From assembly GCA_902621855.1 (NCBI GenBank), contig CACNNQ010000001.1, positions 1 through 64,000 of the forward strand: a stretch of DNA of 64,000 nucleotides, written 5' to 3'. The translations under genes and the position numbers were made by a program. The notes under the pieces were generated by a model. The model searched no databases and was not told the origin of the DNA. It saw only the letters and a list, made by a program, of their open reading frames with translations. This DNA is from an uncultured Alphaproteobacteria bacterium (GTDB taxonomy: Bacteria; Pseudomonadota; Alphaproteobacteria; HIMB59; GCA-002718135). The first letter of the stretch is position 1. Every line of letters starts with the position of its first letter. Shown one piece after another: positions 52,780-54,717 of the stretch.

Positions 52780-53850
52780 CTAATTCAATTTATCTTTGCG
52801 GTAATTAGATCGTATGTCATCAAGTAGGACTGATTTAGACTTATTTTTTACATGCCAAAAATCCCATCCATTGCAACTCGGTAGTCCTTGTATCTTTGCT
52901 CCCATTTGATGAATAGAGCCTGTTAAATCTTTTATTTTAAGTGTACCATCAATACTAACCGTTGCTTTAAAGCGTTCTTTTTTATCAGTTAATACTGCAC
53001 CTGGTGGGATAATTCCTTGCTCGACTAATTCACCAAAAGGTACTTTTGGTAATTCTTTTCTACTTTTAGCAATAGTAACAACTTCTTCTTTCAACACTTT
53101 TGTATTCTTTAATCGTTCTTTTGAAAGTTTAACGTAGTCTTTATCTTTTTCTATGCCAATAAAGTTACGTTGTAATTTTTTTGCAACAACAGCGGTTGTC
53201 CCACTTCCAGAAAAAGGATCAAGAACAAGATCACCTTTGTTAGTTGAGGCTAATAGAATTCGGTAGAGGAGAGCTTCTGGTTTTTGTGTTGGGTGCGATC
53301 GTTGATTGTTATCTTTACGTAATCGCTCTTTGCCTGAGCAAATAGGAATATACCAGTCACTTCGCATTTGTTTTCCTTCATTTAGTTCTTTGAGGTTTTG
53401 ATAGTTAAATGTGTATTTTGCCTCTCTTGAGGTTGTGCACCATAAAAGTGTTTCATGGGCATTTGTGAAACGTGTACCACGAAAATTAGGCATCGGATTA
53501 GTTTTATGCCATATAATATCATTTAAAATCCATAAACATTCATCTTGAATTTTAGAACCTACTCGCAATATATTATGATAACTCCCTATAACCCAAAGAG
53601 CCCCACCTTTTTTTAAAACTCTTTTACATTCACTCAGCCAAGCATTGGTAAATTGATCATACTCTTCATAAGTACTAAATTTATCCCAATCTTGTGTAAC
53701 AGCTTCGACTGTTGTTTGATCAGGTCTGTATAAAGTATCCTTTAATTGAAGATTATAGGGTGGATCAGCAAAAATAAAATCAACAGAATGGTCTTTTAAT
53801 TTTTTCATTTCCTGAATGGAGTCACCTAAAATAATTTGATTTTTTTTCAT
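52780..53850 (-). CDS. ccrM: CcrM-type adenine DNA methyltransferase (GANTC)
   Basis: This 356-residue beta-class N6-adenine methyltransferase has DPPY at residues 29-32 before the AdoMet motif [10 protein letters not shown], as in the beta order. [16 protein letters not shown] and [13 protein letters not shown] are close to the Caulobacter enzyme, and a C-terminal RAMA-like domain (from about residue 270) matches CcrM. It methylates GANTC and in relatives acts in cell-cycle control. There is no partner restriction gene, so it is a solitary regulator. Three GAATC sites lie just upstream. Confidence 0.93.
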
Positions 53851-53862
53851 ATTTCAAAAAAA

Positions 53863-53916
53863 GAATCATTAATCTGTTATGGAATCTGGTCAATAAAGTT
53901 ATCAACAGGATGAATC
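53863..53916. promoter_or_regulatory. Cluster of three GAATC (GANTC) sites upstream of ccrM
   Basis: GAATC occurs at 53863-53867, 53882-53886 and 53912-53916, within 54 bases directly before the ccrM start. At this base composition one GANTC is expected every 350-400 bases. CcrM methylates GANTC, and its Caulobacter promoter is controlled by such sites. They are likely autoregulatory. Confidence 0.6.
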
Positions 53917-53952
53917 ATTTTAATGGGATAATATAGATATAATTTGATATTT

Positions 53953-54009
53953 AATTGAAAAGGGGTCCGAAGACCCCCTGAAATTTTCCATCAATTGGGA
54001 GGAATGATG
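53953..54009 (+). ncRNA. Structured leader or small RNA, unassigned
   Basis: In the 252-base gap between ccrM and rnhB, AATTGA (53953-53958) pairs with TCAATT (53991-53996), enclosing a GGGGTC/GACCCC hairpin (53962-53967 with 53972-53977) capped by CGAA. A ribosome site GGGAGG (53997-54002) follows at once, then two ATGs. TATAAT at 53938-53943 could be the promoter. It does not match a riboswitch or small RNA I know. It could be a 5' leader or an independent RNA. Confidence 0.4.
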
Positions 54010-54027
54010 AAATTATTATTAATATAA
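54004..54027 (+). CDS. Seven-codon mini-ORF, possible leader or gene remnant
   Basis: ATG-ATG-AAA-TTA-TTA-TTA-ATA-TAA (residues MMKLLLI) follows an excellent GGGAGG ribosome site; the second ATG has the better spacing. Reading past the stop gives a short hydrophobic stretch ending in two stops, so it could be the remains of a signal peptide. No codirectional gene follows, since rnhB is on the opposite strand. Translation is only predicted from the ribosome site. Confidence 0.3.
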   Translation: MMKLLLI

Positions 54028-54102
54028 TATTTGTCGCATCTTTTTGTAGCATAATAACATGATATTTATTATGCAAAATATGCATGGTAATATTGTAATT
54101 AT

Positions 54103-54717
54103 TCATTTTTTTAATAAAGATTTAATTGGTTCAAATGATTTTCGATGAAACTGAGTAACACCGTATTTATGTATTGCTTCAATATGTTTTTTAGTTCCAT
54201 AACCTGCATTTTTTTTCCAATTATAAAATATAAATTTTGCATCAAGCATACTCATCAGTCGATCACGGTGAACTTTTGCAATAATAGATGCACTTGCAAT
54301 GGATAAAGATTTTTTATCACCACTAATGATGGATTTTTCATTTTGGTAATCTAATGAAAAGTTTCCATCAATAATAAGATGTGGATTTTCAAAATTAAAT
54401 TTATTTATTACTCTTTTCATTGATAATTTTGTTGCTTCCAAAATATTAATTTGATCTATTTCTTCAACACTTGCAAAACCGAGGTAATATTGAAGTTTTT
54501 TTTCTTTTTGTAATTTTTTGAAAAATATAAATAATTTTTCTCTCTGTTTTGCAGTATGTTTTTTTGAATCAGTTATGGGTATTTCTGATTCTAAATCATC
54601 ATAATTAGAAAAATAGCATCCACAACTGACTACTGGGCCTGCTAATGGACCTCTGCCCACTTCATCTAAACCAATTACAGGTCCATCAATTGATTTTTCT
54701 ATAGAAAAATCAGTCAC
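54103..54717 (-). CDS. rnhB: Ribonuclease HII
   Basis: This enzyme cleaves RNA-DNA junctions and removes single ribonucleotides. The 204 residues contain the catalytic motif GLDEVGRGPLAGPVV, ITDSKK, the SIIAKVHRDRLM block and YGTKKHIEAI. The start is a GTG at 54717 overlapping the moaB stop by one base (TAGTG). In many alphaproteobacteria rnhB is next to ccrM, as here. Confidence 0.94.
   Translation of the reverse strand: MTDFSIEKSIDGPVIGLDEVGRGPLAGPVVSCGCYFSNYDDLESEIPITDSKKHTAKQREKLFIFFKKLQKEKKLQYYLGFASVEEIDQINILEATKLSMKRVINKFNFENPHLIIDGNFSLDYQNEKSIISGDKKSLSIASASIIAKVHRDRLMSMLDAKFIFYNWKKNAGYGTKKHIEAIHKYGVTQFHRKSFEPIKSLLKK

Follow-up and report, generated by a model that had tools for sequence, protein, structure and literature searches.

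The window, a stretch of 64,000 nucleotides from an uncultured alphaproteobacterium, belongs to the HIMB59/AEGEAN-169 group, and the closest relatives that bear names are MarineAlpha5 records and single-cell genomes, AG-337-I02 among them. It encodes a ccrM gene preceded on the same strand by rnhB, with the following features in and around the gap between the two:

52780..53850, minus strand: ccrM, encoding a GANTC adenine methyltransferase of 356 aa with N6_N4_Mtase and RAMA domains.
53863..53867, minus strand: proximal GATTC, at -17 from the ATG, overlapping a weak -10-like hexamer (TTAAAGATTCT in relatives).
53865..53870, minus strand: AATGAT, the weak -10-like hexamer from the consensus scan, 17 bp from the -35 and overlapping the proximal GANTC.
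53882..53886, minus strand: middle GATTC, at -36 from the ATG, just downstream of the -35 hexamer and 19 bp from the proximal site.
53888..53893, minus strand: TTGACC, likely sigma-70 -35 hexamer; weak on its own in the consensus scan, with TTGAC conserved.
53898..53908, plus strand: GTTATCAACAG, a DnaA-box-like element (TTATCAACA) between the distal and middle sites, with one mismatch to TTATCCACA.
53912..53916, minus strand: distal GATTC, at -66 from the ATG, flanked by two TTATC-type elements.
53926..53931, minus strand: TTATCC, a second DnaA-box-like half element upstream of the distal GANTC, in a block of at least 0.9 identity.
53963..53979, minus strand: hairpin GGGGTC-CGAA-GACCCC, seen in the sequence and by folding, and not called by the consensus scan.
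54103..54717, minus strand: rnhB, the upstream neighbor, from the ORF list.

The product of the ccrM ORF aligns with Caulobacter CcrM along almost its entire length (PDB 6PBD; E 5e-125, residues 5-351), has the Pfam domains PF01555 and PF18755, with RAMA C-terminal, and carries the motifs DPPYNLQL and NPMPNF. Its best NCBIfam match is NF050803 (DnaMtaseCcrMCaul), at 559 bits and thus under the 830-bit cut-off. The name of this model suggests that the cut-off is specific to the Caulobacterales, and exceeding it is therefore no defining trait of the wider CcrM family. By homology, the enzyme would methylate the adenine of GANTC; indirectly, this is consistent with the depletion of GANTC across the window (117 observed for 179 expected). 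A ccrM match was found in 93 of the 110 genomes of the family.

The upstream rnhB is on the same strand in 67/70 family loci, and a match to it was found in 63 of 68 loci elsewhere in the class. The hairpin is probably the terminator of rnhB, parting it from the ccrM promoter. The gap (53851-54102) measures about 252 bp in most of the genus and 62-67 bp in other members of the family; the extra DNA here holds the GC-rich hairpin, and the ccrM control region is kept in long and short gaps alike. Folding of the ccrM leader RNA revealed nothing unusual (z -0.42).

The initial annotation had drawn attention to three GAATC sites directly before ccrM, at a density about twenty times that expected. 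Both observations hold. The sites lie at 53863-53867, 53882-53886, and 53912-53916 of the forward strand and read GATTC on the ccrM strand. Three sites in 54 bp amount to 55/kb, compared with 1.96/kb in intergenic regions, 1.66/kb overall, and 2.1-2.65/kb expected from base composition. An excess of about twentyfold (21- to 28-fold) is therefore a fair statement, for a segment whose edges were chosen to end on sites. The genomic densities come from 464 kb of C1, the contig that carries ccrM itself. Counting GANTC over the intergenic regions, a check proposed with the annotation, singles out the ccrM region as the only one of 159 in these 464 kb with at least three sites. In the same sequence, just 2 of 479 predicted genes have at least three in the 100 bp upstream, the other being G000:C1:107397-109070 (minus strand). 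A loose version of the triple-site pattern has 8 matches genome-wide; three are in the checked 464 kb, where the one at ccrM alone is wholly intergenic. A fourth GANTC (GAGTC, 53819-53823) lies within ccrM at codon 10; most of the close clade retains it, whereas the clade at 80% identity does not.

Could such a cluster arise by chance in AT-rich DNA? The motif is short and the segment was delimited by its sites, but a single region in 159 reaches three, and the fixed positions of the sites across relatives refute this reading, whose probability we consider negligible. The comparison of relatives, which the annotation had also proposed, gave a strong result, with fixed spacing in 70 relatives and a homologous layout in the sister family. 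Among 70 upstream regions, drawn from the 110 family genomes, the proximal GATTC is present in 70, the middle one in 66, and the distal one in 68. All three sites occur in 64 loci; the middle one is absent in 4, the distal one in 2, and the proximal one in none. Wherever the middle site exists (66 loci), it is exactly 19 bp from the proximal one, and the variable base of GANTC is T in 203/204 sites. With sequences weighted to about 12 effective ones, identity is 0.95 at the distal, 0.89 at the middle, and 1.00 at the proximal site. It is also 1.00 at TTGAC and at the DnaA-box-like TGTTGATAA, which is invariant in the family between the distal and middle GATTC; outside these blocks it is 0.63 upstream and 0.75 in the spacer. 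The composite GATTC-N3-9-TGTTGATAA-N4-9-TTGAC occurs in exactly one copy in each of 86 of the 110 family genomes and sits at ccrM wherever this gene is located, whereas the reversed control has no matches. In G109, a 93%-complete genome of genus g6, the CcrM-like match is partial (40% identical) and the composite is absent; ccrM may therefore have been lost or replaced there.

How do these sites relate to the promoter? In GcrA/CcrM-type promoters, a GANTC is expected no more than about 40 bp from the sigma-70 start, at or close to the -10 and -35 elements. By consensus scan and family conservation, the GANTC positions fit the predicted -35 and -10 of a ccrM promoter. The -10-like hexamer reads AAAGAT in most relatives and lies in the conserved TTAAAGATTCT block, so placed that the target adenine falls within it. 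Constraint on the core promoter could explain part of the conservation seen at the proximal and middle sites. Taken further, this would mean that the GATTC words are simply part of the -35/spacer, the -10, and the DnaA box region, and that their methylation has no regulatory role. The proximal site, on the -10, is indeed the best kept, and the near-constant T fits a promoter word of fixed sequence better than a freely varying GANTC. However, the distal site is outside the core promoter and is still found in 68/70 loci, GANTC is otherwise depleted, and its enrichment before ccrM extends across the class in varied contexts. We therefore regard constraint on the core promoter alone as quite unlikely. 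An overlap with LexA sites was named as a confounder in an earlier study (PMC7987155); the conserved site words here read ATTC, not GTTC.

The arrangement extends beyond the family. In the sister family, where the rnhB-ccrM gap is 60-73 bp, 16/18 loci have two GATTC-type sites 18-19 bp apart near the start. The proximal GATTC is among the elements found there, and most of the 16 paired loci have GTTATCAACAG just upstream, in the opposite orientation. The CcrM of this family is only about 51% identical, yet the pair is retained. We also compared 68 alphaproteobacterial ccrM loci that lie beyond the HIMB59 order and are not phylogenetically independent. GANTC numbers 3.28 per 150 bp at these ccrM promoters against 0.52 at 246 other nearby promoters, figures that are approximate, since gene starts come from a simple ORF caller. 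At least two sites are found in 81% of the ccrM promoters and 9% of the others, at least three in 68% and 3.7%. The pattern TTGAC-N0-8-GANTC occurs in 43/68 ccrM promoters but only 3/246 others. The spacing of adjacent sites has its mode at 11 bp in the class, so the 19-bp pair is best seen as the lineage form of a class-wide arrangement. A recurrent core promoter in the class, TTGACG-N2-3-GANTC-N6-TGANTCA (loci L099-L126 and L229-L268), has a GANTC pair at 11 bp whose second member lies at an extended -10-like TG.

In PMC7987155, ccrM was predicted to be a core target of GcrA across the class, from 13 species, one per alphaproteobacterial order. Since this prediction dates from 2021, the general idea of GcrA control of ccrM is not new. 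Figure 6 of that study agrees with our data in that GANTC is conserved before ccrM in numerous alphaproteobacterial orders; the passage concerned describes neither a TTGAC-GANTC promoter geometry nor the HIMB59-order composite. Caulobacter GcrA is recruited by methylated GANTC, and mutation of these sites reduced the activity of four promoters by 60-80%, although some of the promoters bound by GcrA did not respond to such mutations (PMC3667746). Sites between the -10 and the -35 are associated with a distinct timing class (PMC4287350). The promoter described here resembles the GcrA/CcrM sigma-70 promoters of mipZ, podJ, and tipF (PMC3667746, PMC4287350) in having GANTC in or near the -35 and -10, in a lineage where the GcrA family is present. 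It differs from them in that the target is ccrM itself and the dependence on GcrA is predicted. Caulobacter ccrM is "most probably" regulated by methylation (PMC3973325); it has been described as active on hemimethylated DNA and silenced once methylation is complete (PMC2217572).

The annotation had gone on to suggest that the same loop as in Caulobacter works here, with an arrangement of its own. The second half of this claim stands: the pair is spaced at 19 bp instead of the usual 11, a DnaA-box-like element accompanies it, and there is no sign of control by CtrA. The identity of the loop is not established: GANTC clusters precede ccrM throughout the class, and GcrA control of ccrM, predicted for many orders, was reported as lost in freshwater Caulobacterales (PMC7987155). 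The Caulobacter ccrM promoter, which is activated by CtrA (PMC2217572, PMC3973325), has in common with this one the GANTC in the promoter region and a suspected methylation feedback. Here, in contrast, the sites are at the -35/spacer and the -10, with 19-bp spacing and a DnaA-box-like element, and neither a CtrA ortholog nor a conserved CtrA site was detected. With a CtrA query, the best matches in seven genomes of the order were 29-33% identical, against 75-84% in two control alphaproteobacteria. The site TTAA-N7-TTAA occurs in 3/70 family and 0/18 sister-family loci. Control of ccrM by CtrA is thus unsupported. GcrA-family proteins occur in 107 of the 110 family genomes, most of which have a full-length copy and a second, short one.

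From these observations, we favor as rather probable a reading in which ccrM is transcribed from a sigma-70 promoter whose activity is adjusted by GANTC methylation; GcrA would sense this methylation, and DnaA might link the promoter to replication. The promoter would combine a TTGACC -35 and a poor -10 with GANTC built into its working parts: one site in the spacer by the -35, one on the -10, and one upstream beside the DnaA-box-like element. CcrM would methylate the three sites and the passage of replication would leave them hemimethylated. GcrA, a sigma-70 cofactor, would read this state and alter promoter opening by RNA polymerase, so that ccrM transcription would respond to the level of CcrM. 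The role held elsewhere by CtrA would probably fall to DnaA, or to another factor, at TGTTGATAA. Against this reading stand the failure to find full-length GcrA in this incomplete genome (most relatives have it), the loss of the middle site in 4 loci and of the distal one in 2, the poor -10, and the mismatch in the DnaA-box-like element. Methylation, the binding of GcrA and DnaA, and the direction of the effect are all predicted, and the sign of the loop could go either way: GcrA is in most cases an activator, but for Caulobacter ccrM full methylation is described as ending transcription (PMC2217572). The retention of the sites in relatives suggests that CcrM probably helps set its own production.

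A negative loop could also work without GcrA. Full methylation in the -10 and spacer might directly lower the binding of RNA polymerase or of a regulator, and transcription of ccrM would therefore be confined to the period after fork passage in which its promoter is hemimethylated. The behavior described for Caulobacter ccrM (PMC2217572) and the target adenine inside the -10-like hexamer are consistent with such a mechanism. Yet nearly every family genome encodes GcrA homologs, the layout matches promoters of the GcrA type, and for this -10 any direct effect of m6A is hypothetical. We find this mechanism unlikely, if less so than pure promoter constraint.

As a putative DnaA box, the element TTATCAACA is invariant and has one mismatch to the standard box; a search for the box of this lineage and for an oriC found no clear DnaA-box array. 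DnaA itself is present. The 11-mer GTTATCAACAG is found at a single place in the entire genome. The TTATCC half element is non-coding here and overlaps the end of rnhB in compact relatives. Might the rnhB-ccrM gap, with these TTATC-type boxes and GANTC sites, be an origin of replication instead of a promoter? The DnaA-box-like elements adjoin GANTC, several TTATC words occur in the sister family, and this contig has a weak GC-skew minimum near 72 kb. However, the 11-mer forms no array, some of the sister-family TTATC words are rnhB codons, and in the complete sister-family genome (G139; 1,410,127 bp) the skew minimum is at about 290-350 kb, with ccrM at 713 kb. The skew rejects an origin at this position for the sister family, and we deem one very improbable here. 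In the same genome, hemE, tried as an origin marker, is off the skew minimum.

As part of the promoter, the DnaA-box-like word suggests a coupling of ccrM to replication. This is in line with an older prediction of DnaA motifs before ccrM where CtrA sites are absent (PMC2877005). Our case shares with it the motif and a lineage without a CtrA site, and differs in having one invariant box-like word, interleaved with GANTC, once per genome. A possible though doubtful extension is that DnaA and a methylation-reading GcrA, acting on interleaved sites, form one integrated device in a streamlined lineage without CtrA. If so, replication initiation would time the methyltransferase, and the methyltransferase would feed back on replication initiation.

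Our literature search, mostly outside subscription journals, found no paper joining HIMB59 and CcrM. To what was known, we add the positional geometry of 68 class loci, the occurrence of the composite once per genome, and, for the HIMB59 order, the fixed 19-bp pair together with an invariant DnaA-box-like word. Positional evidence over many families suggests that CcrM autoregulation is built into the ccrM core promoter throughout the Alphaproteobacteria. It also hints at a way in which abundant marine lineages that lack CtrA could time the methylation of their DNA. Both the composite and the TTGAC-GANTC geometry offer concrete sites for testing.

Finally, no full-length GcrA turned up in this genome (88.5% complete), where the search detected only a short GcrA-like protein of 74 aa (L008:1459-1683; G000:C2, about 216,900). 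This protein covers positions 115-164 of the 173 in the NCBIfam GcrA profile, i.e., the C-terminal part alone, which is the sigma-interacting one, and lacks the DNA-binding part of GcrA; the short copies found beside full-length GcrA in most family genomes are like it. It might compete with GcrA at sigma-70 or modulate it. By visual reading, its gene also has TTATCAACA and GAATC upstream (L008, upstream of 1683).
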